Positions 9,372-23,255 of a stretch of 23,255 bases of DNA are shown in pieces. The notes under the pieces are model-generated. The model did no database searches. It saw nothing but the letters and a program-made list of their open reading frames with translations, and had not been told where the DNA came from. The DNA is from Treponema sp. (lineage in GTDB: Bacteria > Spirochaetota > Spirochaetia > Treponematales > Treponemataceae): positions 1 through 23,255 of the forward strand of contig JAEETM010000053.1 of the NCBI GenBank assembly GCA_016290335.1, in the 5' to 3' direction. Position 1 is the stretch's first letter; each line of letters begins with the position of its first letter. The position numbers and the translations under genes are program-made.

Positions 9372-9806
9372 CTAAATGCAATATTCATATCCTACAAAGG
9401 CTTTATTTTTCTGCACAAGATTTTCAAGCGTAACAGAATCAACAAACTCATTTATCCTATCCGTAAAATCCTGCCAGAACGCAACATTTCCTTTCGATTC
9501 CAGATGATTGTTCTCGCAGTTTCCGCGCGGTGCCAGTTCTCCTTCCATTGCACGAAGAATCTCACCCGCCGTATACTCGTCCGGTTTTTTACTCAGTTTA
9601 TAACCGCCGTTTGTTCCGCGTGAACCTGTAACTAGCCCGCTTTTCCCAAGTTGAATTAGAATCTGCTCAAGATACTTTACCGAAAGATTCCTGCGGTGAG
9701 AAAGAGTTTTAAGCGGGATATAACCTCCCTCGTTTTTCTCTTCCTCCTCGGCAAGGTCCGTCATGATTAAAAGCGCATATTGTCCGCGTGTTGATATTTT
9801 TAACAT
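9372..9806 (-). CDS. Rrf2-family transcriptional regulator
   Basis: 144 residues. MLKISTRGQYALLIMTDLA is the Rrf2 family start; the recognition region is HRRNLSVKYLEQILIQLGK and the wing GSRGTNGGYKLSK. Family members sense Fe-S status (IscR), NO (NsrR) or cysteine supply (CymR with CysK). The IscR cluster ligands are not conserved: only C97 lies in the relevant loop and C143 near the end, so a CymR-like or other non-IscR mode is more likely. Its ATG overlaps the patB stop by 7 nt (9800-9806) with GGAGG upstream, so translation is coupled. Being in the patB operon, it would repress itself if it binds the AACCTA-N9-TAGGTT sites at 10987-11048. Confidence 0.88.
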   Translation of the reverse strand: MLKISTRGQYALLIMTDLAEEEEKNEGGYIPLKTLSHRRNLSVKYLEQILIQLGKSGLVTGSRGTNGGYKLSKKPDEYTAGEILRAMEGELAPRGNCENNHLESKGNVAFWQDFTDRINEFVDSVTLENLVQKNKAFVGYEYCI

Positions 9807-10972
9807 TTCAATGCCTCCGATATTCTATCTATTGCCTCTTTCAAGAGAGCTTGTGGTGTTGCAATATTTATTCGCTGATAGCAGTTTCCTTCAGGTCCAA
9901 ACATTGTGCCGCGGTCAAGCCAAACCTTTGCTTTATTTACAATGATGTCATCCAGCTCACTGTCAGAAATACCAAGCGCCGAAAAATCTATCCATAAAAG
10001 GAAGGTTCCTTCCGGTTCAATAAGACGTGCCTGCGGGATTTTCTGTCTCAAGTACGAGCGCACAAAATCAATATTTTCCAGCAGATGTTTTTTAAGTTCT
10101 TCAAGCCAGGGCTTTCCACCTTCGTAAGCGGCACGGGCAGCAACCATTCCCATAAGGCTTGGTTCATCATAACCGGTTTTATCACGTTCAAGCTTAAACC
10201 TTGCACGCAGGCTCGGATTTTTTATAAAGTTTGTAGAAAACTGTAAGCCCGCAAGATTAAAGGTTTTGCTTGGCGACATAGAAACAATACAATTTTGTGC
10301 AAGCTCAGGTGAAAGCGTTGAAAAAACTGTGTGAACATTCGGCGCATAAACAAAATCGTTGTGAATCTCATCAGCAAAAACAAGAACGTTATGACGCAGA
10401 CAGATTTCTGCAAGACGGCTCAATTCTTCGCGCGTCCAGACCCGGCTTACAGGATTATGCGGACTGCAGAGAATAAAAAGCTTTACATCGTTTTCTACTA
10501 TTTTATTTTCGAAATCTTCAAAATCGATTTGCCATTTCCCATCTTTTTCAAAAAGCGGAGAAGTTACAAGATTGCGGTTATTTGCTTCTATCATATTTTT
10601 AAAAGGATAGTAAACCGGAGTCTGAATCAGAACACTCTCGCCTTCCTTTGTGTATGCTTTGATTGCAGTTGCTATTGCAAATACTACACCCGGAGTTGAA
10701 ACCATTTCTCGACGGTCAAAGGTAAAGTTGTGCTCGTTTTTCATCCAGGCTGCCAGTGCATTATGGAAGGCTTTATCCGGACAAGAATATCCGAAAATAC
10801 CATGATCTATTTTTTTATGAAGAGCTTCGAGGATTACAGGGCTTGTCGGGAAATCCATATCTGCAACCCAGAGTGAAAGAACATCTGCTGGTTTTCCGCG
10901 CGCAACAGCAAGATCGATTTTTACAGCACCAGTATTGCGACGGTCGGTAATTTTGTTGAAGTTATAAGACAT
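9800..10972 (-). CDS. patB: MalY/PatB-family PLP-dependent C-S lyase (cystathionine beta-lyase type)
   Basis: 390 residues of fold-type I aminotransferase architecture. The start has the MalY-type block DVLSLWVADMDFP; PHNP (N173), ADEIH (D201) and the Schiff-base lysine K236 in SMSPSKTFNLAG are all present. MalY/PatB enzymes split cystathionine, cystine or S-alkylcysteines into pyruvate, ammonia and a thiol. It is cytosolic. It is transcribed with rrf2 (7-nt overlap) and divergently from the nitrogenase-like operon through a shared 112-bp operator region. In that setting it may release or recycle thiols. The subfamily is clear, the natural substrate unknown. AGGA lies about 9 nt before the ATG. 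Confidence 0.87.
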   Translation of the reverse strand: MSYNFNKITDRRNTGAVKIDLAVARGKPADVLSLWVADMDFPTSPVILEALHKKIDHGIFGYSCPDKAFHNALAAWMKNEHNFTFDRREMVSTPGVVFAIATAIKAYTKEGESVLIQTPVYYPFKNMIEANNRNLVTSPLFEKDGKWQIDFEDFENKIVENDVKLFILCSPHNPVSRVWTREELSRLAEICLRHNVLVFADEIHNDFVYAPNVHTVFSTLSPELAQNCIVSMSPSKTFNLAGLQFSTNFIKNPSLRARFKLERDKTGYDEPSLMGMVAARAAYEGGKPWLEELKKHLLENIDFVRSYLRQKIPQARLIEPEGTFLLWIDFSALGISDSELDDIIVNKAKVWLDRGTMFGPEGNCYQRINIATPQALLKEAIDRISEALKC

Positions 10973-10986
10973 AATTTTTTTCCTTT

Positions 10987-11007
10987 AACCTATTGACTTG
11001 CTAGGTT
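10987..11007. promoter_or_regulatory. Operator O1, AACCTA-N9-TAGGTT
   Basis: A perfect 6-bp inverted repeat: AACCTA (10987-10992), nine bases, TAGGTT (11002-11007). The -35 hexamer TTGACT of the plus-strand promoter lies wholly in the nine-base spacer, so binding would block it. Assigned provisionally to the adjacent Rrf2 protein. Confidence 0.75.
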
Positions 11008-11021
11008 ATTTAGAGTATAAC
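10993..11021 (+). promoter_or_regulatory. Promoter of the nitrogenase-like operon
   Basis: TTGACT (10993-10998), 17 nt, TATAAC (11016-11021). Predicted start is near 11028, giving a leader of about 57 nt to the ATG at 11085. Its -10 overlaps that of the opposite promoter (11014-11019), so only one polymerase can bind at a time. Confidence 0.7.
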
Positions 11022-11042
11022 TTTAGTTACCTACTATGTCAA
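11014..11042 (-). promoter_or_regulatory. Promoter of the patB-rrf2 operon
   Basis: On the minus strand TTGACA (11042-11037), 17 nt, TATACT (11019-11014). It mirrors the plus-strand promoter: same spacing, -35 inside an operator spacer, and -10 boxes overlapping by four bases. Predicted start near 11006. Confidence 0.7.
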
Positions 11043-11048
11043 TAGGTT
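11028..11048. promoter_or_regulatory. Operator O2, TACCTA-N9-TAGGTT
   Basis: TACCTA (11028-11033), nine bases, TAGGTT (11043-11048), matching O1 in 11 of 12 arm positions. The minus-strand -35 TTGACA lies in the spacer, while the left arm covers the predicted start of the plus promoter. Centres of O1 and O2 are 41 bp apart, close to four helical turns. Confidence 0.75.
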
Positions 11049-11084
11049 ATTAGGCAATTCTAGAAAACCACAGGAGTATATAAT

Positions 11085-12422
11085 ATGGCAAAGATTTTGG
11101 ATCAGCCGCGCTATAAATGTGCGCTTGCTGCAATGCAGACCGTTCATGCAATTCCGGGGGCAATACCGGTTCTTCATTCGGGACCTGGCTGTGCGGCAAA
11201 ATTGAACGACAACAACGGAACAAGCGGACGTTACAGCCCGAATATTTTTCCGTGTACGTCTATAAGTGAAAAAGAAGTTGTATTTGGCGGAACTAACAAG
11301 CTGCGTTCTACTATAGAAAATGCTCTCAAAGTTATTGATGCCGATTTATTCGTAGTACTCAGTGGTTGTACCGGCGAAATTATTGGTGATGACATTGAAG
11401 AAGTTGCAAGTAATTTTGCAGATGCCGAAAAGCCAGTTATCTGGGCAAAAACTCCGGGTTTTAAAGGAAACAACTATGTTGGCCACGACTGGATTTTGAA
11501 GTCAATTTTTGAGCAGTATCTTGAACGTGATGAAGCTGTAAAAGTTTGGGCAAATGCTGATGGTGAACCTGAAAAAGAAAAAGGACTTGTAAACCTTTTT
11601 GTAGCTCCGCCGCAGCAGGATCCTTACTGGCTTGGAAACTTGCGCGAAATTGAAAGTCTGCTTTCTGAAATCGGTTTAAAGCCTAACACAATTTTTGGAT
11701 TTGGCCGCGGTCTTGAAAATCTTAAAAAGATTCCTAAGGCTGAATATACAATTCTTGTTTCCCCTTGGGCTGGCCTGGAAAGTGCTAAATATCTGGAACG
11801 TCGTTTTGGAACCAAGCTTTTGCAGTATCCTCTTCTTCCGATTGGTGCTACAGAAACTACAAAGTTCCTGCGTGCTGTTGCAGATTTTACAGGTGCTGAC
11901 AAGACTTTAACAGAGAGTGTAATCGCCGAAAAGGAAGCAGAGTTCTACTATTATATTGAACGATTTGCAGACACACTTCTGGAAACCCGTATTCTTGGAA
12001 AACGCTTTACGGTTGTTAGCGACAGTGAATATACACTTGCGGTTACCAAGTTTCTTGTAAACGACATGGGACTCTTCCCTGAAAAAGTTTTTATAACTGA
12101 TGATGCGCCAAAAGCCTTCCAGCAGAAAATTACCGATGAATTGAATCAGCTTAATTATGGAATTACAACAGAGCTTCAGTTCACAACTGATGGTCACGAT
12201 ATTCACGAACAGATTAAAGCTTTTGATTTTGCAGGAACTCCGTTGATAGTTGGCTCTAACTGGGAAAAGAAGCTTGCTCTGGAAATGGGTGCACACTATG
12301 TAAACGTGAGCTACCCTATGCTCGAAAAGCTTGTAATAAATGATCACATTGCCGGTTACAGCGGCGGACTTCATTTACTGGAACAGATTTATACAGCAGC
12401 TATGAGCAAGCTTAAGTTATAG
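11085..12422 (+). CDS. Nitrogenase component 1-like protein, NifK-like (beta-type) subunit
   Basis: 445 residues of the oxidoreductase/nitrogenase component 1 family. The N-terminal half has C12, C36 (SGPGCAA) and C95 (SGCTGEIIGDD); the spacings of 24 and 59 match NifK P-cluster ligands C70, C95 and C153 (25 and 58). VFGGTNKL corresponds to the NifK VFGG..N region and C95 is followed by the usual I-G-D-D. It lacks the long N-terminal extension of true NifK (about 520 aa). It should pair with the NifD-like protein as an alpha2beta2-type enzyme holding an interface Fe-S cluster. It is not a canonical nitrogenase: gene order is K-D and no nifH, nifE, nifN or nifB is here. A Mar-like (methylthio-alkane reductase) or uncharacterised Nfl-type reductase is the best comparison. 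AGGAG lies 8 nt before the ATG. Confidence 0.85.
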   Translation: MAKILDQPRYKCALAAMQTVHAIPGAIPVLHSGPGCAAKLNDNNGTSGRYSPNIFPCTSISEKEVVFGGTNKLRSTIENALKVIDADLFVVLSGCTGEIIGDDIEEVASNFADAEKPVIWAKTPGFKGNNYVGHDWILKSIFEQYLERDEAVKVWANADGEPEKEKGLVNLFVAPPQQDPYWLGNLREIESLLSEIGLKPNTIFGFGRGLENLKKIPKAEYTILVSPWAGLESAKYLERRFGTKLLQYPLLPIGATETTKFLRAVADFTGADKTLTESVIAEKEAEFYYYIERFADTLLETRILGKRFTVVSDSEYTLAVTKFLVNDMGLFPEKVFITDDAPKAFQQKITDELNQLNYGITTELQFTTDGHDIHEQIKAFDFAGTPLIVGSNWEKKLALEMGAHYVNVSYPMLEKLVINDHIAGYSGGLHLLEQIYTAAMSKLKL

Positions 12423-12432
12423 GAGGAAAAAA

Positions 12433-13905
12433 ATGCCATTTAATTTTACTAATGCAAATATAGCAATACGCGAAAACCGACTCGGTTCTATTACAGGTTT
12501 TGTTGGAGATCTTAAAACTCTGGTAGAAAAATCTGAAGATGGAAGTCTCAGAAACAGAGAGCGCTGCTTCAGCCAGTCAAGCTCCTGTCTTTCGGGCTGT
12601 GCCCTCAATGCACTTGCCGCTATACGTAATGTTGCAGTTGTTTACCATGCGCCTGCCGGTTGTACTGCAATGGCAAGTAATGATGCAGTAAAGTTCGGAC
12701 AGATTGCAGCACGCGTTAATAAAACAACAAACTCTGTTTTTGTCTGCACAGATTTGAATGAAAAAGACACTGTATTTGGTGCAACTAACGATTTGCGAAA
12801 AATCATTCTGCACACCTACGAAGCTTATAAGCCTGATGCAATTTTCGTTTCTACAAGCTGTGTTTCAGGTGTAACCGGTGAAGATGTTGACGGTGTTGCA
12901 AGCGATTTAGACTCCGAGCTGCCAATTCCTGTAATTCCAGTTCACTGTGAAGGTTTTAAGAGCCGAATCTGGGCCAGCGGTTTTGACATTTCTGATCACG
13001 CAGTTTTACAGGGTATTGTACAGCCACCAAAGCAAAAAAGGCGCACAATCAATATTAAAAACTTTTATGAAAGTGCACGTCCACAGATTACAAAAATCTT
13101 TAATGAAGTCTTTGACGCAGAACCACAATTTCTTTACTGTAACTCGACTATCGAAGAATTGTCTCACTTGAGTGAAGCTCTGGCAACCGTTTGTATCTGC
13201 GGTACACTTGGAACTTACCTTGGAAATGCTTTGGAAGAAAAATACGGTGTTCCTTATGTGCGTACAATAAATCACTCTGGTGTTACCGGCTTTGAAACCT
13301 GGTTGCGAGGAATAGGAGATGCAATTGGAAAGCGTGCAGAAGTTGAAGCCTACATTGAAAAACAGCGCGCCATTTTCATTCCTCAGATTGAAGAAGTAAC
13401 AAAGCAGCTGAAAGGACTTCGTGCTGTAATTGGAATGGGCCCCGGCTTTACTTACGAAATTGCCCGTGTTCTTCAGGAGTTTGGAATGACTGTAGAATAT
13501 GCCCTTGCCTGGCACTATGACTATAAGTACGATAACGGAAAGGTTCCACCTGCACTTGAACATCTGCTTGAGCATTCTCCGAAGGATATGAAAGTGGCAG
13601 TTGCCGACCAGCAGAACTATGAAGTTTTGAATATCTTAAATCACTATAAGCCTGATGTTTATTTCAGCCGTCACCCTGGAACAACAGTCTGGGCAATCAA
13701 ACAGGGCTTTGCTGCAGTCTTTGTTGCAGATGAATACACCGTTTTTGGTTACGAAGGAACTCTGAGCTTTGCAAAGCTTATCCGCGACACTGTAACAAAC
13801 CGCAGCTTTGAAAAAAATCTTGCTGCCCGAATTAAGCTTCCATACACAAAATGGTGGTATGAGCAGAATGCAGATAAGTTTATTAAGGAAGAAGCTAAGA
13901 AATAG
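12433..13905 (+). CDS. Nitrogenase component 1-like protein, NifD-like (alpha-type) subunit
   Basis: 490 residues. C52 (or C56), C77 (HAPAGC) and C143 (TSCVSGVTGEDVDGV) match NifD C62, C88 and C154; the 77-to-143 spacing of 66 is identical. C256, in ICGTLGTYLG before EEKYG (268-272), lines up without a gap with the FeMo-cofactor ligand C275, so an active-site metallocluster is likely. The FeMo-co histidine H442 has no counterpart in the aligned segment (VADEYTVFGYEG, 431-442), and the H195 region reads SGFDISD instead of a His-His motif, which argues against N2 reduction. H361 in ALAWHYDYKYDNG resembles a loop shared with NifD/NifE. AGGAGG sits between the two genes, 10 nt apart. An electron-donating NifH-like protein must come from elsewhere. 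Confidence 0.87.
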   Translation: MPFNFTNANIAIRENRLGSITGFVGDLKTLVEKSEDGSLRNRERCFSQSSSCLSGCALNALAAIRNVAVVYHAPAGCTAMASNDAVKFGQIAARVNKTTNSVFVCTDLNEKDTVFGATNDLRKIILHTYEAYKPDAIFVSTSCVSGVTGEDVDGVASDLDSELPIPVIPVHCEGFKSRIWASGFDISDHAVLQGIVQPPKQKRRTINIKNFYESARPQITKIFNEVFDAEPQFLYCNSTIEELSHLSEALATVCICGTLGTYLGNALEEKYGVPYVRTINHSGVTGFETWLRGIGDAIGKRAEVEAYIEKQRAIFIPQIEEVTKQLKGLRAVIGMGPGFTYEIARVLQEFGMTVEYALAWHYDYKYDNGKVPPALEHLLEHSPKDMKVAVADQQNYEVLNILNHYKPDVYFSRHPGTTVWAIKQGFAAVFVADEYTVFGYEGTLSFAKLIRDTVTNRSFEKNLAARIKLPYTKWWYEQNADKFIKEEAKK

Positions 13906-13917
13906 GAGAAATGAAAA

Positions 13918-14895
13918 ATGGCAAAAGTATATGATTCATTAACAGAACTCGTTGGACACACACCACTTGTACGACTCCACGGTTATGAAAAAAAACTCGG
14001 GCTAAAAGCTCACATACTGGCCAAGATTGAATATTTTAATCCAATTGGAAGTATTAAAGACCGTATTGTTCTGCGCATTATTGAAGATGCAGAGCGTGAA
14101 GGAAAAATAAAACCAGGCGTAACAACTCTCATTGAATACACCAGCGGTAATACAGGAATTGCTGTAAGTGCTATTGGTGCAATGAAAGGTTATAAAGTTC
14201 AGATTTATCTTCAGGAAGGAGTAAGCCAGGAACGACTTCAGGTTATGAAGGCTTTTGGTGCTAACGTTCAGAAAATCAGCGAAGTACCAGAACTGCAGGA
14301 TGAATTAAAGGCAACTAACAACGACTTTGTAGCCGCAACTAACATCTTAAAGCAGCATATTCGTGAACGCCAGTCTGCAGGAGACAGTATTTACTTTGTA
14401 GACCAGATGATTAATCCATTAAACCCTACTGCTCACCACGATACAACAGGACCGGAAATCTGGGAAGATACAGACGGTAATCTTGATGCAGTAGTAAGCG
14501 CAGTTGGTACTGGTGGTACAATCCGCGGTATAAGTGATTATATCAAAGCGCAGAATCCGCATGTAAAAGTTATTGCAGTTCAGCCTGCAATTGACGCAGG
14601 AAAGCTCACGGGAATCCACAATTTTACAGAAGTACCGGAAGAACGTGTTCCAATTGCAATCAAAAATAAAGATGATATATTTGATGAAGTTCTTACTGCA
14701 GGCGTACAGAATGGTTTTGAAGCTGCAAGAATTGTTGCAAAAACAGACGGTGTGTTAGTTGGAAATTCCAGCGGCGCCGCTCTCTGGGGTGCAACAGAGC
14801 TTGCAAAACGTCCTGAGTTTGAAGGAAAGAATATTGTAGTTGTATTCCCGGATACAGGATTAAGATATTTAAGTACGGAGCTTTTTGCCGAGTAA
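13918..14895 (+). CDS. Cysteine synthase-like PLP enzyme (O-acetylserine sulfhydrylase family)
   Basis: 325 residues, fold-type II. The PLP lysine K47 lies in NPIGSIKDR (the family usually has NPGGSIKDR or NPLGSVKDR), the substrate loop is TSGNTG (75-80), the phosphate-binding loop GTGGT (197-201), and the end has FPDTGLRYLSTELF, typical of CysK/CysM. The enzyme joins sulfide (or another small thiol nucleophile) to O-acetylserine. It begins 12 nt after the NifD-like gene with AGGAGA, and its stop overlaps the lysR start by one base. It is therefore translated in the same operon as the reductase, which suggests it captures the sulfur product. The loop Q-M-I-N-P-L-N-P differs from standard CysK, so the acceptor could vary. 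It may also act as a partner of the Rrf2 regulator, as CysK does with CymR. Confidence 0.87.
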   Translation: MAKVYDSLTELVGHTPLVRLHGYEKKLGLKAHILAKIEYFNPIGSIKDRIVLRIIEDAEREGKIKPGVTTLIEYTSGNTGIAVSAIGAMKGYKVQIYLQEGVSQERLQVMKAFGANVQKISEVPELQDELKATNNDFVAATNILKQHIRERQSAGDSIYFVDQMINPLNPTAHHDTTGPEIWEDTDGNLDAVVSAVGTGGTIRGISDYIKAQNPHVKVIAVQPAIDAGKLTGIHNFTEVPEERVPIAIKNKDDIFDEVLTAGVQNGFEAARIVAKTDGVLVGNSSGAALWGATELAKRPEFEGKNIVVVFPDTGLRYLSTELFAE

Positions 14896-15824
14896 TGACT
14901 CTTCAACAGATAAAATACATTCTGGGTGTCGCTGAATCGGGGTCTTTTAACAAGGCCTCGGAAAAGCTTTTTATCTCGCAGCCCTCCCTTACCAGCTCCG
15001 TACACGATGCTGAATATGAACTTGGTTTTCAGATTTTCAACAGGTCTGCACGTGGCGTTACGGTAACAGAACGTGGACAAAGCTTTATACACGATGCCCG
15101 GAATCTGTATTCACAATACGAAGAACTTCTCAAAAAACACTGTGGTATTGAAAAAAAGAACTTTTCTGTTTCTACACTTTATTATGCTTTTGCACGAAAA
15201 GCCTTTGTGGAAATTGTAAAAAAATATTCATCACAGGAATATGATTTTGCTTTCTGTGAAAAAAAGGCTTCTGATGTAATTGATGATGTGGCTTCCGGAA
15301 ACAGTACAGTCGGCATTTTATATTTGAGTGAACAAAACCGTGAAGAAATCAACAAAAACTTAAAAGCAGGCAAACTTGAGTTTCATCCGCTCACCGAATG
15401 TAATGCCTTTGCGTATCTTCATAAAAAACATCCTCTTGCTAAAAAAGAAAGTCTTTCTCTCGATGAACTCCAATCATATCGTTTTATTACCTTTGACACC
15501 GATGATGTCAAATCTTTCTTTTCACATGAAGTTATTTCTAAATACGGATTAGACAAAGCAATTACCGTGGCAGACCGTGCAACAGAATTGAATCTCATAG
15601 AAAATCTGAACGGCTATACTTTTCTTTCCGGCATATACGGCGAAGATATTAACGACCCGGATGAAAGCTTTGTGTTAATTCCTCTTCAAAATCACGACAC
15701 AACAATCAGCCACACCTTTGAGCTGGGCTACATCACAAAAGCCGGCCAGCGCATGAACGACATCAGCCTTACCTACATAGACGCAATCCGCCGTATTCTT
15801 CACATCGCGGGATTTACGTGTTAA
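14895..15824 (+). CDS. LysR-family transcriptional regulator
   Basis: 309 residues. The N-terminal winged helix is clear (MTLQQIKYILGVAESGSFNKASEKLFISQPSLTSSV with wing near FNRSARGVTVTERG), followed by a linker helix and a two-lobed periplasmic-binding-protein-like effector domain. The start codon overlaps the cysteine-synthase stop (TAATG at 14893-14897). LysR proteins bind T-N11-A dyads near -65 and usually activate; exactly such dyads lie at 15861-15883 and 18944-18966. It probably activates both transport operons, and perhaps hydE, in response to a sulfur metabolite. The effector domain is too divergent for me to name the ligand. Confidence 0.9.
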   Translation: MTLQQIKYILGVAESGSFNKASEKLFISQPSLTSSVHDAEYELGFQIFNRSARGVTVTERGQSFIHDARNLYSQYEELLKKHCGIEKKNFSVSTLYYAFARKAFVEIVKKYSSQEYDFAFCEKKASDVIDDVASGNSTVGILYLSEQNREEINKNLKAGKLEFHPLTECNAFAYLHKKHPLAKKESLSLDELQSYRFITFDTDDVKSFFSHEVISKYGLDKAITVADRATELNLIENLNGYTFLSGIYGEDINDPDESFVLIPLQNHDTTISHTFELGYITKAGQRMNDISLTYIDAIRRILHIAGFTC

Positions 15825-15860
15825 ATTACAGACGCTTCAATTCCCTGTTCATTTTATTTT

Positions 15861-15883: not shown

Positions 15884-15901
15884 TTAATCAATAAAATATA
15901 T

Positions 15902-15948
15902 TATGCAAGGTATCTGTTTTTTAGTATAACATACTAAGTTACTAGGTA
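15902..15948 (+). promoter_or_regulatory. ABC permease promoter with overlapping operator O3
   Basis: TATGCA (15902-15907), 17 nt, TATAAC (15925-15930). The -35 is poor, as expected for an activator-dependent promoter. AACATA (15928-15933)-N9-TAGGTA (15943-15948) overlaps the -10 and start and matches O1 at 10 of 12 arm positions. The same TATGCA-N17-TATAAC and AACATA-N9-TAGGTA arrangement occurs at 18985-19031. Confidence 0.6.
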
Positions 15949-15985
15949 ATTAAAACGACCTTTTAAGTTTTATATGAGGTACAAA

Positions 15986-16957
15986 ATGAAACAAATACTG
16001 CAATCAATTAAACAAGTTCTTTATCGGGCTTTTCCGGCTTTAGGAGTTCTGTTTGCACTTCTTATTCAAACAACAGTTCCAGACAGCCCACTTCATCCAG
16101 CTGCGCAAAAGCCTTATTACAATTATGTTCTGTTTTTTCTGCTGGCGGTAACCGTTACAGTTTTTATCATTTCATTTTTCAACAAAAAATTACGTACCTC
16201 TCTTACCTTCAAAGGTCCTTTCTTCGCGGGGGCAGGAGTTTTGATTACGCTCCTAAATCTCATAACTGCCAAGTTTGCCCTGCTCCCCGTGATTTTTTTT
16301 CCAAGCTACGACAATATTCTGGGCGTGTTTGTTGAACAGACAAGCCTGCTCGGAAAATGTATATGGTATTCCTTCCGGCTTTTGCTGCTCGGCGTTTTCT
16401 GGGGAATAACAGTTGGCTTTATTACCGGAGTTCTTCTCGGATTTTCACAAAAGGTTTACTACTGGATTAATCCTTACATAAAGCTGATTGGACCAATTCC
16501 TGCCACAGCCTGGATTCCGCTTGTACTTACAACCTTTCCTACACCTTTTGGAGCAAGCGTTTTCATTATTGCACTTGCAGTATGGTTCCCGGTTCAGCTG
16601 ATGACAAGCTCCGGCATTCAGAATACAAGCAAGGTTTATTTTGAGGTTGGTAAGACACTTGGTGCAGGCACCTTCTTTCAGGTTTTCAAGATTGCCGTTC
16701 CTGCCGCTCTGCCAAATATTTTTCAGGGCGTATTCAACGGAATCTGTGCCGCCTTTATCGCCCTTATGACCGCCGAAATGTTCGGTGCAAAATATGGAAT
16801 CGGCTGGTACATCAGTTACCAGAAAGCCATGATGCTTTACAGCGGAGTTTACGCCGGCCTGATTATGATTGCAGTTTTCTGTACCGTGATTATTACAGCG
16901 CTCTTTAAGGTGCGTAAACGTCTGTTAAGCTGGCAGAAGGGTTTGATTAAGTGGTAG
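15986..16957 (+). CDS. ABC transporter permease, NitT/TauT (SsuC) type
   Basis: About 323 residues with six or more hydrophobic segments. The conserved cytoplasmic coupling loop of the BPD_transp_1 family is recognisable: the ISLGTLLG-like IGPIPATAWIPLVLTTF, and the EAA loop as EVGKTLGAGTFFQVFKIAVPAALPNIFQG. N-terminal helices (about 15-35 and 46-66) are extra compared with a minimal SsuC. An in-frame ATG at 15974 exists, but GAGG at 15976-15979 serves the ATG at 15986. The next gene, an SsuB/TauB-type ATPase, follows 23 nt later. The matching binding protein is probably the lipoprotein at 19058, in a separate but co-regulated operon. Substrates of the family are nitrate, taurine, sulfonates and similar small anions; context favours a sulfur compound. 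Confidence 0.88.
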   Translation: MKQILQSIKQVLYRAFPALGVLFALLIQTTVPDSPLHPAAQKPYYNYVLFFLLAVTVTVFIISFFNKKLRTSLTFKGPFFAGAGVLITLLNLITAKFALLPVIFFPSYDNILGVFVEQTSLLGKCIWYSFRLLLLGVFWGITVGFITGVLLGFSQKVYYWINPYIKLIGPIPATAWIPLVLTTFPTPFGASVFIIALAVWFPVQLMTSSGIQNTSKVYFEVGKTLGAGTFFQVFKIAVPAALPNIFQGVFNGICAAFIALMTAEMFGAKYGIGWYISYQKAMMLYSGVYAGLIMIAVFCTVIITALFKVRKRLLSWQKGLIKW

Positions 16958-16980
16958 AGCCATCACACAGGAGAAAAATT

Positions 16981-17760
16981 ATGTCTGGAGAAATTAAAAT
17001 AAACAATGTAACAAAAATCTTTAATCAAGGTGCAGCCGAAGAAGTCACCGCACTCAATGGCGTAGACTTCACAATTCCTGCAGGAAGCTTTGTTTCACTC
17101 ATTGGACCGTCCGGCTGTGGTAAGACAACGCTCCTCCGCTGTATCGCAGGGCTGGAAACTCCAACCTCCGGCGAAGTAGATGTAGACGGTGCAAAAATCA
17201 CAAAACCTGGCAGCGACCGCGGCTTTGCGTTCCAGCAGGCAAATCTTTTTCCCTGGCTTACAATCCGCGACAATGTTGCATTCGGTCTTCGAGCCCGCCA
17301 CATATATAAAAACCGCAAGGCCGATGTTGATGAGTTCATCAAACTTGTTGGACTTGAAGGCTTTGAAAAATCTTTCCCTCATCAGCTTTCCGGCGGTATG
17401 AACCAGAGAGCAAGCCTTGCACGCGCACTCGTAGGTCACCCTAAAATCCTTCTGCTTGATGAACCGCTTGGAGCCCTCGATGCCTTTACCCGAATGACAA
17501 TGCAGGACGAAATAATCCGCCTGTGGAAGGAGCATAATACAACAATGGTTATGGTTACCCACGATGTAGACGAAGCCGTTTATCTCAGTGACTATGTAGT
17601 TGTAATGTCACCACGCCCGGCAAAAGTTGAAAAAATAATAAAGATCGATTTGAGCCACCCACGTGCCAGAGCCCAGGATGTATTCTTAAAATACCGCACC
17701 CAGATTCTTGAAATCCTCAATTACGCTGGAAAAGTTCAGGAAGCAGAATACGCCATCTGA
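16981..17760 (+). CDS. ABC transporter ATP-binding protein, NitT/TauT (SsuB/TauB) type
   Basis: 259 residues. Walker A GPSGCGKT (42-49), Q-loop in AFQQANLFPWLTIRDNV (the L-x-P-W-L-T block is typical of the SsuB/TauB/NrtD group), signature LSGGM (136-140), Walker B ILLLDEP with the catalytic glutamate at about 161, D-loop GALD and H-loop VTHDVDEA. It powers the permease encoded directly upstream. A longer frame from 16951 would overlap the permease stop; AGGAG at 16969-16973 supports the ATG at 16981. The gene ends 19 nt from the 3' end of the convergent hydE-type gene. Confidence 0.92.
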   Translation: MSGEIKINNVTKIFNQGAAEEVTALNGVDFTIPAGSFVSLIGPSGCGKTTLLRCIAGLETPTSGEVDVDGAKITKPGSDRGFAFQQANLFPWLTIRDNVAFGLRARHIYKNRKADVDEFIKLVGLEGFEKSFPHQLSGGMNQRASLARALVGHPKILLLDEPLGALDAFTRMTMQDEIIRLWKEHNTTMVMVTHDVDEAVYLSDYVVVMSPRPAKVEKIIKIDLSHPRARAQDVFLKYRTQILEILNYAGKVQEAEYAI

Positions 17761-17772
17761 TTTTTATGCTTC

Positions 17773-17810
17773 GGGAGATTTATATGCCTTTAAACTTAAT
17801 ATGATCTCCC
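17773..17810. terminator. Weak hairpin between convergent ABC ATPase and hydE-type genes
   Basis: GGGAGAT (17773-17779) and ATCTCCC (17804-17810) form a perfect 7-bp stem around a 24-nt loop, followed on the plus strand by CTGTCTTTT. It spans the end of the hydE-type gene. The loop is large and the T-run short, so terminator function is uncertain. Confidence 0.25.
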
Positions 17811-18874
17811 CTGTCTTTTACAACCTCATACCCAATACTCTGCACCCGCCTGGACATACAATTAATACATTCAGCCGCTTCTTCACCTGTACAGATTTTA
17901 TTGTCGTAAAGTAAATATTTTCCACGCACGTTCGATGGAGAAAGGTTTGGCATTACAACATTTGCCCCAGCCAGCAGACCTTTTTCGCGCCCAAGAGGAT
18001 CAACAGTTCCAAGTGCAGTTGTTGCAGGAAGCAATGTTTCAGGTAAAAGCAACCGTATAATAGACAGGAGCCGGACCGTCATTTCTGCTGTACCAGCCGC
18101 ATAATCTTTGTACTCTGTATCGCGGTGTGGAATAAAAGGACCTATTCCAACCATTTCCGGTTTAAAGGCTTGAAGAAATCGCAAATCTTTAATCAGATAT
18201 TCAGGTTTCTGCCCGGGAGAGCCAACCATCATACCACATCCCACCTGATAACCAATATCACGTAAATCCTGAAGACACTGCATCCTGTGTTCAAAAGACA
18301 TTCCCTTAGGATGCAGTAACTCATAGTGATTTTTATCAGCAGTTTCATGACGAAGCAGATAACGATCCGCGCCAGCATCATACATTTTTTTATAACTGTC
18401 TTTATTCCGTTCTCCAATTGAAAGTGTAATTGCACAATCAGGATGATTTTTCTTAATTGCGCTGATAACAGGAACTATTCTCTCGTCCGTAAAACATGGA
18501 TCTTCTCCACCCTGCAAAACAAACGTTCTAAAGCCAAGCTCATATCCAACATCACAACAGGATAGAATCTCCTCATCACTCAGACGATAACGGCTGGCAT
18601 TTTTATTTGAACAGCGGATTCCACAATATCTGCAATCGTTTTTACAATAATTTGTAAACTCAATCAGCCCGCGAATATATACTGCTTTTCCGTAATTTCT
18701 TTCCCTAACAACCCTCGCTTTTTCTAAAATGTAGTCATTGAAAACAGGATTGCTGTAAAGCAGCACAGACAGAAGTTCTTCATCCGTAAGGTCACCTGAA
18801 ACAGCAAGTCTGTCTACAAAGCTCTTATTTTCAGATAGAGAAGCTTTTGGGATTTTATAATCTATTGCTTTCAT
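17780..18874 (-). CDS. hydE: HydE-type radical SAM enzyme ([FeFe]-hydrogenase maturase family)
   Basis: About 364 residues. The radical-SAM cluster motif is C-x3-C-x2-C (C-KND-C-RY-C, residues 77-84 from this start) followed by GIRCSNKNASRYRLS, characteristic of HydE. A second, auxiliary cluster motif C-x7-C-x2-C lies at the end (about residues 328, 336 and 339). Other HydE blocks are LQGGEDP, GCGMMVGSPGQ and GIGPFIPHRDTEY. HydE acts on a cysteine-bound Fe(CO)2CN species in H-cluster assembly; related enzymes make other products. hydF, hydG and a hydrogenase are not in the window. It is read convergently with the ABC ATPase and divergently from the binding-protein operon. An ATG three codons upstream (18883) lacks a ribosome site; GGGA precedes 18874. 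Whether it serves hydrogenase or this cluster is open. Confidence 0.85.
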   Translation of the reverse strand: MKAIDYKIPKASLSENKSFVDRLAVSGDLTDEELLSVLLYSNPVFNDYILEKARVVRERNYGKAVYIRGLIEFTNYCKNDCRYCGIRCSNKNASRYRLSDEEILSCCDVGYELGFRTFVLQGGEDPCFTDERIVPVISAIKKNHPDCAITLSIGERNKDSYKKMYDAGADRYLLRHETADKNHYELLHPKGMSFEHRMQCLQDLRDIGYQVGCGMMVGSPGQKPEYLIKDLRFLQAFKPEMVGIGPFIPHRDTEYKDYAAGTAEMTVRLLSIIRLLLPETLLPATTALGTVDPLGREKGLLAGANVVMPNLSPSNVRGKYLLYDNKICTGEEAAECINCMSRRVQSIGYEVVKDRGDHIKFKGI

Positions 18875-18876
18875 TT

Positions 18877-18926
18877 TTCCCATATATACGATGGGTTATT
18901 ATATCAAAAAGCCATTTTATCAGCAA
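18877..18926 (-). promoter_or_regulatory. hydE-type gene promoter with degenerate operator
   Basis: On the minus strand TTGCTG (18926-18921), 17 nt, TATAAT (18903-18898) give a predicted start near 18891. AACCCA-N9-TGGGAA (18897-18877) overlaps that start and has the same half-site spacing as O1-O4, but only about 8 of 12 arm matches. The LysR-type dyad centred at 18955 is about 64 bp upstream of this start. Confidence 0.45.
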
Positions 18927-18943
18927 TTTTAAATATTCTATTT

Positions 18944-18966
18944 AGTTATAAAAAAAATCTATATCT
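18944..18966. promoter_or_regulatory. LysR-type T-N11-A dyad between hydE and the binding-protein operon
   Basis: AGTTATAA-N7-CTATATCT repeats the dyad at 15861-15883 with two arm mismatches. Its centre at 18955 is about 65 bp from the predicted starts on both sides (near 19020 on plus, near 18891 on minus), so one site could serve both promoters. Confidence 0.6.
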
Positions 18967-18984
18967 ATCATATAAAAAAAATAT

Positions 18985-19031
18985 TATGCATACTACATGC
19001 ATTTTGATATAACATAGTACATTGGTAGGTA
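18985..19031 (+). promoter_or_regulatory. Binding-protein operon promoter with overlapping operator O4
   Basis: TATGCA (18985-18990), 17 nt, TATAAC (19008-19013), then AACATA (19011-19016)-N9-TAGGTA (19026-19031) overlapping the -10 and start. The layout is identical to that at 15902-15948, although the spacers differ in sequence. Confidence 0.6.
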
Positions 19032-19057
19032 ATTAATATTTACAGGAGGATTGCTTT

Positions 19058-20161
19058 ATGAAAAAAGCATATTCAATTAAATTTATCGGTGGAATTGCCC
19101 TCATTGCAATTTCTGCCATGCTCACAGGCTGCTCTAAAAAGCAGAATACAAAACCAACTTCGGGCGGGACTGAACAAAAGGTTGTACGCATTAATTTCTC
19201 AACAGGAAGTCTTTGTCATGCGCCGGTTCATATTGCAATGGCTCTTGGACTTTTTGAAGAAGAGCTTGGAAAAATCGGACAGAAAGCTGAATATGTACAG
19301 GTTGTAGAAGGTGGTGCAACTCTTGGAGAAATGATTGCTTCAGGAAAAGTTGATGCCGGTTACGGATTGTATGCTACACAGCTTCAGGCAATTGAAAACG
19401 GACTTCCAATTTCATTTACATCTGGAATCCATACTGGTTGTACAAAATACTATGTTCGTGCAGACAGTGATATTTATTCAGCAGCAGATTTACGCGGAAA
19501 GACAATCGGAGTTCCCGGACTTGCAGACAGTGCCGTAATGAATCTCAAGAGAAAACTTATTGATGTTGGTATTGGAGTTACTGCTGACAATAATGAAGTT
19601 GAGTTCATTGCTTACGCTTCTGCAGATCTTGCAATTGCCTTGAATAACGGTGCGGTAGATGCAATCGGAGCTCACGACCCTGTTGCAACAAAGGGTGAGC
19701 TTGCTTACGGCTTCAGAAAGATTCTTGATACGGGAACTGATGAAAAGTTTGTAAATGAATATTGCTGCCAGCAGTTTGTAACACACAAGCTGCTCAGTGA
19801 AAATCCGGCTGGTGCTGCAGCTGTTACACGAGCTTTACAAAAAGCTGCCGCTTATGTTGAAGCAGAACCAAGAGCCGCCGCACAGCTTCAAATTGAAAAG
19901 AATTATGTAGCAGGCGACCTTGACTTTAATGCCGCTTTACTCGAAGAACTATTCTATCAGCCAAGCCGTTCTCTCGGAAAGAAAACCTTTGAAGCTGCTG
20001 CCCGCCAGTTACAGCAGGCTGGAGTTTTGAAAGCTGCAACTAACATCGAAAAGTTTATTGAAGACGGCTATATCGAATTGTACGGTGTACCAGACGGCTA
20101 CATCTACGACAGTGCAACAAAAGAATATAAAGAAATAAACGGAACAAGGACATCATTATGA
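19058..20161 (+). CDS. NitT/TauT-type ABC substrate-binding lipoprotein
   Basis: 367 residues. A lipoprotein signal is clear: basic start, hydrophobic core, lipobox L-T-G-C with C25 as the lipidated residue, then a Ser/Lys/Gln-rich linker. The mature part resembles NMT1/SsuA-like proteins: INFSTGSLCHAPVHIAMALG at the first strand, EGGATLGEMIASGKVDAGYG, then ADLRGKTIGVPG and a two-lobe pattern. C54 lies in the likely ligand-facing first loop (LCHAPVH), where canonical SsuA-like proteins rarely have Cys. It probably delivers substrate to the permease/ATPase at 15986-17760. It heads an operon with DUF4418-like, FtsX-like and LolD-like genes (ATGA overlap with the next). AGGAGG sits 8 nt before the ATG. 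Confidence 0.88.
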   Translation: MKKAYSIKFIGGIALIAISAMLTGCSKKQNTKPTSGGTEQKVVRINFSTGSLCHAPVHIAMALGLFEEELGKIGQKAEYVQVVEGGATLGEMIASGKVDAGYGLYATQLQAIENGLPISFTSGIHTGCTKYYVRADSDIYSAADLRGKTIGVPGLADSAVMNLKRKLIDVGIGVTADNNEVEFIAYASADLAIALNNGAVDAIGAHDPVATKGELAYGFRKILDTGTDEKFVNEYCCQQFVTHKLLSENPAGAAAVTRALQKAAAYVEAEPRAAAQLQIEKNYVAGDLDFNAALLEELFYQPSRSLGKKTFEAAARQLQQAGVLKAATNIEKFIEDGYIELYGVPDGYIYDSATKEYKEINGTRTSL

Positions 20162-20361
20162 AATATATAAATATAATTTTATCAAGTGTAACTGCCCTAT
20201 TCGGGCTTCTCGTTAGCATTGCACCATACACCTTTGCAAAAGTCTGCGGAATGGCAAACATGCATTGTCATAAGGTTACTGCACCAACAGTTTTAGTTTT
20301 TGGTATTCTGATTTTTGTAATTTCTACAATTCAGGCAGCAATCTTATGGAAAAAGCAATAA
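20158..20361 (+). CDS. Small DUF4418-like membrane protein
   Basis: 67 residues with two hydrophobic helices (about 3-27 and 42-62) separated by a short loop KVCGMANMHCHK. The Cys-x-n-M-H-C-H pattern in an extracytoplasmic or membrane-edge loop resembles the DUF4418 family, normally a four-helix protein of about 130 aa, so this would be a half-length version. The Cys, His and Met residues could bind a metal, but nothing proves it. It overlaps the binding-protein stop by 4 nt (ATGA) and the FtsX-like start by 16 nt, so it is clearly a translated member of the operon. The family name is moderately sure; function unknown. Confidence 0.7.
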   Translation: MKYINIILSSVTALFGLLVSIAPYTFAKVCGMANMHCHKVTAPTVLVFGILIFVISTIQAAILWKKQ

Positions 20362-21545
20362 CAATTTCGGGGCTTGCTCTTTCAAACATAAAGCGTAAGC
20401 CCTACCGCACTGCTGCCTTAATTTCAATCTCTGCACTTTCTGCAGCAGTGCTGTTTGCCAGTTTTATTCTTTCTTCAAGCCTCAAAGGCGGAATCCACGG
20501 TTTCCAGAAACGTCTCGGTGCAGATTTGATGATTGTACCGGAAGGTTATACCGCACAGATGGAAAGTGTACTTCTTACCGGCGAACCCAATTATTTTTAT
20601 ATGGATAAAAGTGCAGAAGAAATTATTCGCAACATAGAAGGCGTTGAAAAAGCAAGCAGCCAGTTTTATCTTACAAGCCTTAGCGAAAGCTGCTGTGACT
20701 TCCCTATTCAGATTATCGGCTTTGATCCTGAAAGTGATTTTATTGTAACACCGTGGTCCAAAAACAAAATCAAAGTGCCAAAAAATGACACTTCCACCAG
20801 TGAAGAATTGATTTTTGCAGGGCACAATGTAAACATAACTAACAGACAGGTAACATTTTTTTCTCAAACTCATACAGTTACATCAAAGCTTTCAAAAAGC
20901 GGTTCCGGTATGGACAACGCAATTTATGCAGACTTACCAACCCTTCAGAAAATCTTTAATGATGCAAAAACAAAAGGATTCGGTTTTATTTCTGATGGTG
21001 ATACAAATACAAAAACAAGCGTTATCTTTGTAAAACTGGCTCCTTATGCAAAACCCGACAGCACTGCAATAAAAATCAAAACAGCGCTGCCAGAAGTTCA
21101 GGTAATAAAAGGCGGAAGCTTTATTTCACAGTTAGCAGAAAAAATCTCATCATTCCTGATTTTTCCAAAAATCCTTACAGTTCTATTTCTGCTTATAACA
21201 ATATTTACACTTGCAATTGTATTCTCTCTGATTGTCAATGAACGAAAAAGAGAATATTCAATTCTGCGTGTGTTAGGAGCAGATAACTTTACAATGAAAA
21301 AATTGATTTTTACCGAAGCTACTATCATCGGTTCAATTGGAGCAGGTATTGGTATTTTTTTTGCCGCACTTATTGTCCTTCCATTCAACACATTGATTGC
21401 AGAAAAACTTTCTGTTCCATTTGCACTTTCAGGCCCGGCATTGATTATTCTTTTTGCAATTTTAACATTTGTAATATCTGTAGTTTCAAGTGTATTTTCT
21501 GCAGTATTTGGAGCTGCAAAACTTTCAAATCAAAAAGTCTGGTAA
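20346..21545 (+). CDS. FtsX/MacB-like ABC transporter permease
   Basis: 399 residues. An N-terminal helix (about 20-42) is followed by an extracytoplasmic MacB-PCD-like domain (about 45-270) and three C-terminal helices (about 277-300, 323-345 and 357-385), the FtsX fold. NERKREYSILRVLGADNFTMKKLIFTE matches the conserved cytoplasmic segment after the second helix. These permeases do not import solutes; they work as mechanotransmitters or extract lipoproteins, peptides or small molecules with a LolD/MacB-type ATPase, which is the next gene. No ribosome site is obvious, and the start lies inside the DUF4418-like gene, so translation is probably coupled. Placement behind a NitT/TauT binding protein is unusual. 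Confidence 0.88.
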   Translation: MEKAITISGLALSNIKRKPYRTAALISISALSAAVLFASFILSSSLKGGIHGFQKRLGADLMIVPEGYTAQMESVLLTGEPNYFYMDKSAEEIIRNIEGVEKASSQFYLTSLSESCCDFPIQIIGFDPESDFIVTPWSKNKIKVPKNDTSTSEELIFAGHNVNITNRQVTFFSQTHTVTSKLSKSGSGMDNAIYADLPTLQKIFNDAKTKGFGFISDGDTNTKTSVIFVKLAPYAKPDSTAIKIKTALPEVQVIKGGSFISQLAEKISSFLIFPKILTVLFLLITIFTLAIVFSLIVNERKREYSILRVLGADNFTMKKLIFTEATIIGSIGAGIGIFFAALIVLPFNTLIAEKLSVPFALSGPALIILFAILTFVISVVSSVFSAVFGAAKLSNQKVW

Positions 21546-21557
21546 AAGGAGTTATAA

Positions 21558-22211
21558 ATGATTGAAATAAAAAACCTTAAAAAAGCATTTCAAACATCTC
21601 ACGGAAAGCTTACAATTTTTGAAGATTTTAATCTCACTGTAAAAGACAGCACATTTCTCGGTATTCAGGGAAAATCCGGTATTGGAAAAACTACCCTCCT
21701 TTCAATAATTGCAGGCCTGCAGAATCCAGACAGCGGTACCATAACAATTGACACTACAGAATTAACATCACTTTCAGAAAAAGAGCTTGCTGCTTTCCGT
21801 AATCGGAACATAGGTTACATTTCGCAGGAACAAAGTCTTTTGGAAAATCTTACAATTGTTGATAACGTAAGACTTCCTGCATATCTTTCAAAAACAAACA
21901 ACTCATCAGATGAAGAAATCGCAAATCACACAAACAGACTTCTCGCAGACTTTGGCATCTTACATCTTGCCAAACAATATCCATCCGATCTTTCCGGCGG
22001 CGAAAATCACCGTGTCCTTATTGCCCGAGCCTTAATCAATAACCCACAAATCATCCTCGCCGATGAACCAACCGATTCTGTTGACGAAGAACGAACAGAT
22101 GAAATAATAAAAATATTCAAGAATCTCGCAACCCAGGGCAAAACAGTAATTCTTGTAAGTCACGACTCACAGGCTTTAAGACTTTGTGATGAAGTTATAA
22201 AGATTAAATAA
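21558..22211 (+). CDS. LolD/MacB-type ABC transporter ATP-binding protein
   Basis: 217 residues. Walker A GKSGIGKT (38-45), Q-loop SQEQSLLENLTIVDNV, signature LSGGE (145-149), Walker B IILADEP with E170, H-loop VSHD. ILADEPT and the size are typical of the LolD/FtsE/MacB ATPase group that pairs with FtsX-fold permeases, here the gene just upstream. The D-loop reads DSVDEE rather than the common GNLD, a minor divergence. AGGAG lies 6 nt before the ATG. It is the last gene of the operon; 13 nt separate its stop from that of the convergent PLP-enzyme gene, with no clear terminator between. Confidence 0.9.
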   Translation: MIEIKNLKKAFQTSHGKLTIFEDFNLTVKDSTFLGIQGKSGIGKTTLLSIIAGLQNPDSGTITIDTTELTSLSEKELAAFRNRNIGYISQEQSLLENLTIVDNVRLPAYLSKTNNSSDEEIANHTNRLLADFGILHLAKQYPSDLSGGENHRVLIARALINNPQIILADEPTDSVDEERTDEIIKIFKNLATQGKTVILVSHDSQALRLCDEVIKIK

Positions 22212-22224
22212 ATCGGATGTCAAA

Positions 22225-23255
22225 TTATTTCAACGCCTCTTCCAAATCCTTAATCAAATCTTCTGCACTTTCAATTCCAACAGAAAGGCGTAATGTTTCC
22301 GGTGTAATTCCATTTTTGATTTTGAGCTCTTCCGGTACATCGGCATGAGTTTGAGTTGTAGGATAAGTGATTAAAGTTTCTACGCCACCAAGGCTTTCGG
22401 CGTATTTTATGAGGTGTACTTTTTCAAGCACAGAAAGTGCTTTTTCTACAGAGTTTAATCGGAAGGTTACCATTGCACCAAAACCACGGCTTTGTTTTTT
22501 CATGATTTCATAGCCGGGGTGTTCAAGTAAACCAGGATAAATTACTTTTGTAACGGCTGGCTGCAGTTTCAGCCATTCTGCAATTTTGGCTGCATTTGCC
22601 TGTGCCTTTTCCATACGTACCGCAAGAGTTTTAATACCGCGCAATAAAAGCCAGCTGTCAAATGGAGCCAGTCCGGAACCTGTTGTCTTTATGAGGAACC
22701 GAAGCTTTTCATTTATTTCATGATTTCGTGAAACAATAAAACCTGCAAGTGTATCATTGTGCCCTGCCAAAAACTTTGTTCCGCTGTGAATTACAACATC
22801 TGCACCCAAGTCCAGTGGATTTTGAAAATAAGGCGACATAAATGTATTATCCACAACTAACAATAAATTATGTTTATGTGCAAGCCTTGCAATTGCAGAA
22901 ATATCTGTAACATTCATCATTGGATTTGTAGGAGTTTCCACATAAATAGCTTTTGTGTTAGACTTAATTAACAACTCAATATTATCGCTCGCACAATTTG
23001 CCCGTGTAAACTCTATTCCATTTTTTGCAGAAACATTATCAAACAAACGGATTGTACCACCATACAAATCCGAATCTACAATCAGATGGTCACCAAGTTT
23101 AAAGATTTCCATAAAAAGAGTAATTGCTGCCATGCCCGTACTTAAAGCAAAAGCATCTGTTCCGTGCTCCAGCTGGCAAAGGATTTTTTCAAGCTGCTCT
23201 CGTGTAGGATTCTGCAGGCGTGAATAATCAAAGCCTGTACTTTTTCCAACCCCAG
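22225..23255 (-). CDS. Cys/Met-metabolism PLP enzyme (cystathionine gamma-lyase/synthase family), N-terminus cut by window edge
   Basis: About 343 codons are visible; the frame continues upstream of the first internal Met (23133) to the right edge and gives TGFDYSRLQNPTREQLEKIL followed by LEHGTDAFALSTGMAAI, so the true start lies outside. The PLP lysine is in DVVIHSGTKFLAGHND, and VYVETPTNPMM-type (AIYVETPTNP) and SLGGVETLITYP blocks are family signatures. Family members make or cleave cystathionine, or sulfhydrylate O-acyl-homoserine; the subtype cannot be decided by eye. A full protein would be about 375-390 aa. It is convergent with the LolD-like gene and continues the sulfur amino-acid theme, although its promoter is not visible. 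Confidence 0.88.
   Translation of the reverse strand, partial: GVGKSTGFDYSRLQNPTREQLEKILCQLEHGTDAFALSTGMAAITLFMEIFKLGDHLIVDSDLYGGTIRLFDNVSAKNGIEFTRANCASDNIELLIKSNTKAIYVETPTNPMMNVTDISAIARLAHKHNLLLVVDNTFMSPYFQNPLDLGADVVIHSGTKFLAGHNDTLAGFIVSRNHEINEKLRFLIKTTGSGLAPFDSWLLLRGIKTLAVRMEKAQANAAKIAEWLKLQPAVTKVIYPGLLEHPGYEIMKKQSRGFGAMVTFRLNSVEKALSVLEKVHLIKYAESLGGVETLITYPTTQTHADVPEELKIKNGITPETLRLSVGIESAEDLIKDLEEALK

Follow-up and report, generated by a model that had tools for sequence, protein, structure and literature searches.

Two systems of the nitrogenase superfamily are the closest described parallels to the locus considered here, a pair of nitrogenase-like genes (K and D) with their neighbours in a 23,255-nucleotide stretch from a rumen Treponema (contig JAEETM010000053.1 of assembly GCA_016290335.1; "the window" below means this whole stretch). 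One is the methylthio-alkane reductase MarBHDK of Rhodospirillum rubrum (PDB 9fmg, 9d9u; PMC12552129), which forms methanethiol from small methyl thioethers, and the other is IsrBHDK of Rhodobacter capsulatus (PMC11423573), a nitrogenase-like organic-sulfur reductase that has an SsuA-type importer, releases sulfite and is reported in Spirochaeta and gut bacteria. Three further systems can be likened to the locus by description only: group IV-A Nfa of Endomicrobium proavitum and the heliobacterial NflDK1-5, group IV D/K pairs present several per genome with one NifH (PMC9147875); a group IV nifK-nifD operon of the termite spirochaete P. corrugata that includes a cysteine synthase gene, very likely of the same kind but with NifH and NifB at distant loci, for which one sentence suggests a sulfur role (PMC13067680); and MarHDK-like genes of anaerobes near PatB, CysK, MetY or MetB, in or near mlp clusters, which differ in being corrinoid methyltransferase clusters and for which sulfur salvage has been proposed (PMC10418091). 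That group IV pairs may act in sulfur metabolism had been suggested before. What is new here is the family assignment, the change in the pocket, the operator-defined regulon and the missing sulfite reductase; a literature search, with most subscription journals outside its reach, turned up no account of the pocket, operator or importer of this family, and nothing on point concerning T. bryantii and sulfur.

The original prediction read the locus as encoding a nitrogenase-like, sulfur-liberating reductase, and this core is well supported by kinship to Mar, kept cluster ligands, recurring neighbours and a shared operator, though the prediction as a whole holds only in part. The explanation that we prefer as a whole, with rather more confidence than doubt, is a reductase forming its own family within the Mar superclade and serving an operator-controlled sulfur supply.

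K and D in relation to the Mar reductase

By sequence and by predicted fold, R. rubrum Mar is by far the closest solved relative of both subunits, with identities of 32% for D and 40% for K. A tree of D alone (60 rows, IQ-TREE, LG+C20, with six NifD/NifE rows as outgroup) placed the window D within a 23-row clade of Treponema, Fibrobacter and Bacillota (support 100/100), while true Mar orthologues, comprising RrMarD and seven rows 54-75% identical to it, formed a separate clade (100/100). Together with further unnamed families, these two clades make up a 43-row superclade (99/99), within which the window clade plus one Clostridium row is sister to a 19-row branch holding Mar (96/89); the tree flags long-branch joins, including those at the base, and the window clade's own branch was not put to a test of its own. 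True Mar genes co-occur with the window type in 5 of 20 genomes, one from Fibrobacter (G013) and four from Clostridia (G015, G016, G017 and G020).

The residues that would hold the clusters are conserved. Cys52, Cys77 and Cys143 of D occupy the P-cluster positions and were kept in all 86 clade sequences, as were Cys256 and Arg413-His414, which correspond to the large-cluster anchor (Cys270) and loop I (Arg428-His429) of MarD. This Arg-His pair is present in 43/43 rows of the superclade and missing from the 11 outer group IV rows and the six NifD/NifE rows. The P-cluster positions of K (Cys12, Cys36 and Cys95) were filled in 76/76 sequences at two sites and in 75/76, with one gap, at the third, a count that includes MarK. 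All six P-cluster positions of Mar are therefore matched, Trp195, Phe199 and His375 of MarD are also retained in the window D, and it is very probable that D holds a large cluster. The pocket differs from that of Mar at two places: the active-site His194 of MarD is Ile in 85 of the 86 clade sequences and Val in one, and His376 is Tyr in 85 of 86. Because of two tested features, clade placement and His194, we assign the pair to the Mar superclade but not to Mar itself, the former with near certainty and the latter, as a separate family, with only a little less confidence.

Other assignments were tried and rejected. The original prediction had proposed to set the subunits against the NifEN and chlorophyllide-reductase groups by phylogeny; run for D, the tree put the window D outside the NifD/NifE outgroup, and not inside NifE. 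Membership of NifDK or NifEN is further contradicted by Trp and Phe at the positions of NifD Gln191 and His195 and by a His ligand on the Mar loop. BchNB/BchYZ and CfbD, which have no rows in the tree, were ruled out by score only, their models lying far off (K reached 118 of 490 bits with BchB, for example, and 47 of 268 with the CfbD model). Membership of Isr was rejected as well, since IsrD is reported to have one P-cluster Cys and no equivalent of the Cys275 ligand (PMC11423573), as against three Cys and Cys256 in the window D.

Gene neighbourhood and the probable NifH, NifB and NifX partners

Profile searches of the window's proteins recovered, each in its place, every gene that the original prediction had named (scores are in bits, with model cut-offs where available):

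9372..9806, minus strand: Rrf2-family regulator (PF02082, 99; best named model NF047409 CymR, 107, below cut-off 195)
9800..10972, minus strand: PatB/MalY-type C-S lyase, in the same operon as Rrf2 (TIGR04350, 458; cut-off 340)
11085..12422, plus strand: K subunit, MarK-like (PF00148, 247; MarK 9d9u_C, 343; next family, 80)
12433..13905, plus strand: D subunit, MarD-like (PF00148, 226)
13918..14895, plus strand: cysteine-synthase-like variant coupled to K-D (cysKM, 289, below cut-off 344)
14895..15824, plus strand: LysR-type regulator
15974..16957, plus strand: ATP-binding cassette (ABC) importer permease, NitT/TauT type (PF00528; best model SaoP, 97; cut-off 295)
16951..17760, plus strand: ABC importer ATPase (SaoA, 279, below cut-off 360)
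17780..18883, minus strand: HydE (TIGR03956, 566; cut-off 255)
19058..20161, plus strand: ABC importer binding protein, NMT1/SsuA type, with four invariant cysteines (profile match)
20346..21545, plus strand: FtsX-type permease, of uncertain role in the system
21558..22211, plus strand: LolD-type ATPase, of uncertain role in the system
22225..23253, minus strand: Cys/Met pyridoxal phosphate (PLP) enzyme of the cystathionine gamma-synthase/lyase family, its 5' end past the window edge

K, D, CysK and LysR (11085-15824) are read as one operon because of their spacing (10, 12 and -1 bases). This operon is divergent from PatB-Rrf2 and is followed by the importer, the FtsX/LolD module and the Cys/Met PLP enzyme. 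The coupled variant cysteine synthase, PatB and the importer, together with the NifX-type genes and Treponema operator described below, set the window type apart from Mar. The D of the window shares 94-98% identity with its counterparts at the first 18 genome loci recovered (L001-L018, from Treponema and Spirochaetales), and 94% with that of Treponema bryantii XBD1002 (L018).

We counted neighbours in the 39 of 80 related loci that have at least 9 kb on each side of D. A member of the cysteine-synthase family was present in 31 (a count of the whole family, not of the variant alone), an ABC ATPase in 24, NifH in 23, NifB in 22, a NifX-type gene in 21, PatB in 20, LysR in 19, Rrf2 in 14, a cystathionine gamma-synthase (CGS) type in 12, a permease in 10, a binding protein in 8 and FtsX in 4. 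In Ruminococcus (L064), a single strand carries LysR, CGS, PatB, CysK, NifB, NifX, NifH, CysK, D, K, NifX, binding protein, permease, ATPase and Rrf2, in that order. In 20/20 genomes, where copy number predicts 1.3, a binding protein of the NMT1 family is encoded no more than 25 kb from D, and in 13/20 (0.5 expected) no more than 10 kb from it, four of these cases (G010 and G015-G017) resting on weak matches of 24-27 bits. The neighbours foreseen as conserved recur across Spirochaetota, Fibrobacterota and Bacillota.

Four traits had been put forward as distinguishing the locus from known Mar operons, and they fared unevenly. The K-D order holds in the closest Treponema and Fibrobacter loci, whereas other Treponema and Bacillota have D-K; the FtsX/LolD module is weakened as a distinguishing mark by its recurrence in some Treponema loci and one Clostridium locus; and the HydE neighbour falls away, a relative being found in only 1 of the 80 related loci (L063), which also rules HydE out as a component of the system. 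The fourth trait, the lack of NifH, turned out to be an effect of the window's edge. T. bryantii (L018, L141) has the gene order of the window minus HydE, continued by Cys/Met PLP, NifX-type, NifH, an unnamed frame, NifB and a canonical cysteine synthase, a run that lies entirely on the minus strand. In all six of the other close genomes inspected (L142-L147), the genes for NifB, NifH and the Cys/Met PLP enzyme are grouped in the T. bryantii order with at least one NifX-type gene (PF02579). The window stops inside the Cys/Met PLP gene, which in these seven genomes is the last gene of a convergent NifB/NifX/NifH operon. For the genome of the window itself, relatives with the same gene order make it very likely that NifH and NifB, partners that Mar also has, lie past the edge. 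Of 20 genomes, 17 have NifH on the contig that carries D, at a distance of 2-37 kb; in T. ruminis the two are about 560 kb apart, and in the remaining two genomes NifH is on other contigs. K and D are the only PF00148 matches of T. bryantii, and its one strong NifH (427 bits; the other three reach at most 36) should therefore serve this pair; its NifB scores 244 bits, below a cut-off of 344.

With 461 bits against a cut-off of 394, the NifH of T. bryantii passes the curated nifH model, and a group IV system without NifEN has been reported to fix N2 (PMC9147875), so the possibility that the locus encodes a nitrogenase has to be weighed. We regard this as hardly credible, given the Trp/Phe pair and the Mar-loop ligand noted above, the reported finding that Mar itself does not fix N2 (PMC12552129), and the sulfur genes that keep company with the operator.

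Further DK pairs were seen in these genomes. A very divergent PF00148 pair (73-94 bits) stands beside a second NifH-like gene in G003 (C10:98650-101385, L169; NifH-like gene 315 bits) and G012 (C10:71744-74458, partly L106; 324 bits, with one TAG inside the match). Pairs of other clades occur in the same region as the window type, several by an ABC importer (L180 and L181 in G108, and L006, L014, L019, L032, L049 and L157; no systematic count was made), and in G108 three DK pairs share a stretch of about 40 kb, near which operator sites revealed a single NifH-NifB-CysK operon.

Elsewhere in the window, whose G+C content is 30-46% in 1-kb steps, HydE sits between the importer ATPase and binding-protein genes, with neither HydF nor HydG in the window. 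An acetyltransferase at 2060-2578 has an arsinothricin-resistance protein of ArsN1 type B as its best model (151 bits, below a cut-off of 210), and two adjoining genes at 2857-6982 are, judging from their motifs, presumably a type III restriction-modification pair, with weak curated matches below cut-off.

The operator and its regulon

PatB and K are separated by 112 bases, in which CCTATTGACTTAGTAGG or a close variant of it (CCTA-N9-TAGG) occurs twice, in mirrored orientation. Two divergent sigma-70-type promoters are predicted there, and the -35 box of each is overlapped by one of the copies. A weaker similar site precedes the importer.

10989..11005, plus strand: first operator copy; shares bases with the -35 box (10993-10998) of the K promoter, whose -10 box is at 11016-11021 (17-base spacer)
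11030..11046, minus strand: second, mirrored operator copy; shares bases with the -35 box (11042-11037) of the PatB promoter, whose -10 box is at 11019-11014 (17-base spacer)
15930..15946, minus strand: weak operator-like site just upstream of the importer permease, matrix score 11.7

Both copies are present in 20/20 aligned loci, that is, the window and 19 others, with L007 (long gap) and L019 (no PatB) omitted. A weight matrix built from 36 sites of 18 aligned loci, whose training sites score 25-31 against a background of 0.03 matches per 20 kb at score 15 and 0.14 at score 10, found matches ahead of NifH (23.6 to 27.9) and ahead of CysK-NifB or NifB (25.4 and 19.7). The site before the importer permease scores 24.1 in T. 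ruminis (L149) and 11.7 in L001 and L011, as in the window.

We extended the search to the whole genomes of T. bryantii, T. ruminis, G108 and T. saccharophilum, where the pattern gave 39 matches at no more than one mismatch and the same pattern read backwards gave 8. Each of the 15 exact matches has a relevant gene no more than 350 bases downstream: PatB/K (three sites, of the same kind from which the pattern was derived), Rrf2/NifH or NifH, CysK-NifB, NifB/BioB, CGS/MetY-family genes and amino-acid-type binding proteins. For three operator-linked binding proteins, a cystine-type model was the second-best named one (about 103-106 bits, cut-off 312), while the one at L200 matches no NCBIfam model and is assigned to SBP_bac_3 in Pfam. 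MetN and MetQ stand at one-mismatch sites (378 and 195 bits, both below cut-offs). It is with high confidence, then, that we place the K-D genes in a cysteine/methionine regulon. We presume that the Rrf2 protein reads the operator: its gene accompanies PatB and, in T. ruminis (L186), is divergent from NifH around a single exact site. T. ruminis (L190) also has an exact operator in the interval that separates NifB from a divergent gene for biotin synthase (BioB, 403 bits, cut-off 225), and biotin synthesis may belong to the same regulon.

One exact site of T. bryantii (L203) precedes an O-acetylhomoserine sulfhydrylase gene (MetY-type; TIGR01326, 606 bits, cut-off 495). Were the window type a functional methylthio-alkane reductase, this operator-controlled enzyme would make methionine from the methanethiol released, an explanation with which the Mar superclade and active-site set also agree. 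The true Mar orthologues are, however, another clade that resides alongside the window type in some genomes, both His194 and His376 are replaced, and small volatile thioethers would need no dedicated importer; we consider this explanation unlikely.

Import, product and proposed pathway

Siroheme sulfite/nitrite reductase (PF01077) was found in 0/13 spirochaete genomes (12 labelled Treponema and one Spirochaetales), the complete T. ruminis chromosome included. A survey of 195 genomes of the Treponemataceae, the family of T. bryantii, likewise found it in none of the 38 genomes whose D, among the matches listed, is strictly of the window type (820 bits or more, our own cut) and in 13 of the other 157, G155 included; this anticorrelation is small, and we use the absence alone. 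Seven D matches of 607-642 bits are intermediate and, among the matches listed, two of their holders (G185 and G196) lie outside the 38. In G128 and G169 (L176, L177), an Isr-like operon comprises a binding protein/importer, a radical S-adenosylmethionine (SAM) protein (NF045502, 406 bits), NifH, D, K, an O-acetylhomoserine sulfhydrylase-like gene and a sulfite-reductase-C-like gene (141 bits, below a cut-off of 324), its D lacking, by eye, the first P-cluster Cys. The absence of sulfite reductase from strict carriers and the presence of a sulfite-reductase-C-like gene in the Isr-like operons suggest that in Treponema the window type is likely to yield sulfide or a thiol rather than sulfite. 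The same evidence bears on an Isr-like sulfonate reductase releasing sulfite, which would accord with the SsuA/TauA-type importer adjoining K-D and with the superfamily and sulfur role common to Isr (PMC11423573); this we judge very unlikely, as the P-cluster cysteines of D also differ from those of IsrD and the radical SAM gene is of NifB type, not the other type that partners Isr. PAPS-reductase (3'-phosphoadenosine 5'-phosphosulfate reductase) family matches in 12/20 genomes (T. bryantii yes, T. ruminis no) gave no clear picture and were not used.

T. bryantii encodes two cysteine synthases, a canonical one beside NifB (TIGR01139, 454 bits, cut-off 351) and the DK-coupled variant, in which the catalytic motifs are kept and the HKIQGIGAGF substrate loop is replaced. 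Something other than sulfide may be what the variant uses, or its acceptor may be a different one. It is not universal: in its best clade 45/50 rows are DK-adjacent (support 0.81, FastTree), and the DK-adjacent enzyme of L060 is of another type.

The importer's binding protein has invariant Cys53, Cys128, Cys236 and Cys237, as well as His125 and His206 (16/16 aligned). Four invariant cysteines are odd in an import binding protein, and the ligand might be a thiol, a soft metal or an organometal. The best NCBIfam models, SsuA (82 bits, cut-off 164) and SaoX (77, cut-off 300), both fall below threshold, sequence comparison gives 26 bits to 3qsl and THI5, and the predicted fold is of the general NMT1/SsuA/ThiY class. 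The chances that this importer carries the K-D substrate seem to us evenly balanced. These cysteines, together with an importer ATPase and permease that score best with the Sao family, linked to organometals in a review (PMC13188914; a literature search for SaoX/SaoA itself brought up unrelated work), raise the possibility of another substrate, such as a toxic or redox-active compound or one with a non-sulfur leaving group, the genes lying in a sulfur regulon because the enzyme's clusters need sulfur or because sulfur stress coincides with that substrate. Steady coupling to a cysteine-synthase family gene (31/39 loci) and the linkage of PatB, CGS, MetY and MetN genes by position or operator make this improbable.

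In the pathway that we prefer, K and D would form the catalytic part of a reductase carrying a P-cluster and an [Fe8S9C]-type cluster, the latter bound by Cys256 and His414 of D; NifH (electrons, ATP) and NifB/NifX (cluster supply) would come from the convergent operon cut by the window's right edge. A putative Rrf2-type repressor would bind the CCTA-N9-TAGG operator, so that shortage of cysteine or methionine would switch on K-D-CysK-LysR, PatB, the H/B operons and the importers together. The importer would probably take up an organic sulfur compound, and KD would reductively cut its C-S bond, a reaction that we think probable; reduced sulfur (sulfide or a thiol, not sulfite) would then be taken up by a cysteine synthase or a MetY-type enzyme and passed on to methionine.

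Several observations weigh against this account. His194, which in MarD lies near the reactive edge, is Ile in the window D. The weight-matrix scan found no operator-like site above 6.5 upstream of the T. bryantii importer permease, and that of the window is weak; one-mismatch matches, which were read only in part, fall within open frames in L199, L206 and L207. The fold of the binding protein does not tell its ligand, since a sulfonate, a thiamin precursor or another compound would all fit. PF01077 is present in 5 of the 7 non-Treponema carriers, for which sulfite could therefore be the product, and G155 has a sulfite reductase together with a window-type D fragment at a contig edge. Finally, the original prediction had the product captured by the cysteine-synthase-like enzyme co-translated with K-D, which can only be conjectured, because the substrate loop is changed and a canonical CysK stands beside NifB.

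More tentatively, gut anaerobes may possess a modular, nitrogenase-family kit for mining sulfur, in which a single NifH and a single NifB/NifX cluster line would be shared by several interchangeable DK heads, a number of which adjoin an ABC importer, with control by a cysteine/methionine operator. The head in the window would then represent a C-S reductase family not seen before, its pocket having Ile in place of His, that acts on a class of substrates beyond the reach of the enzymes known from this superfamily. Through the operator, the function of other unassigned DK pairs also becomes easier to approach. Since the T. bryantii NifH exceeds the curated nifH cut-off, surveys of nifH/nifD in the gut may count sulfur scavengers as nitrogen fixers. 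Rumen species that can be cultured now allow a role in sulfur amino-acid supply to be tested for this unassigned Mar-type family of rumen and gut bacteria. The family would extend anaerobic C-S bond chemistry past methyl thioethers and isethionate, and would help to explain how rumen treponemes that have no sulfite reductase obtain their sulfur.

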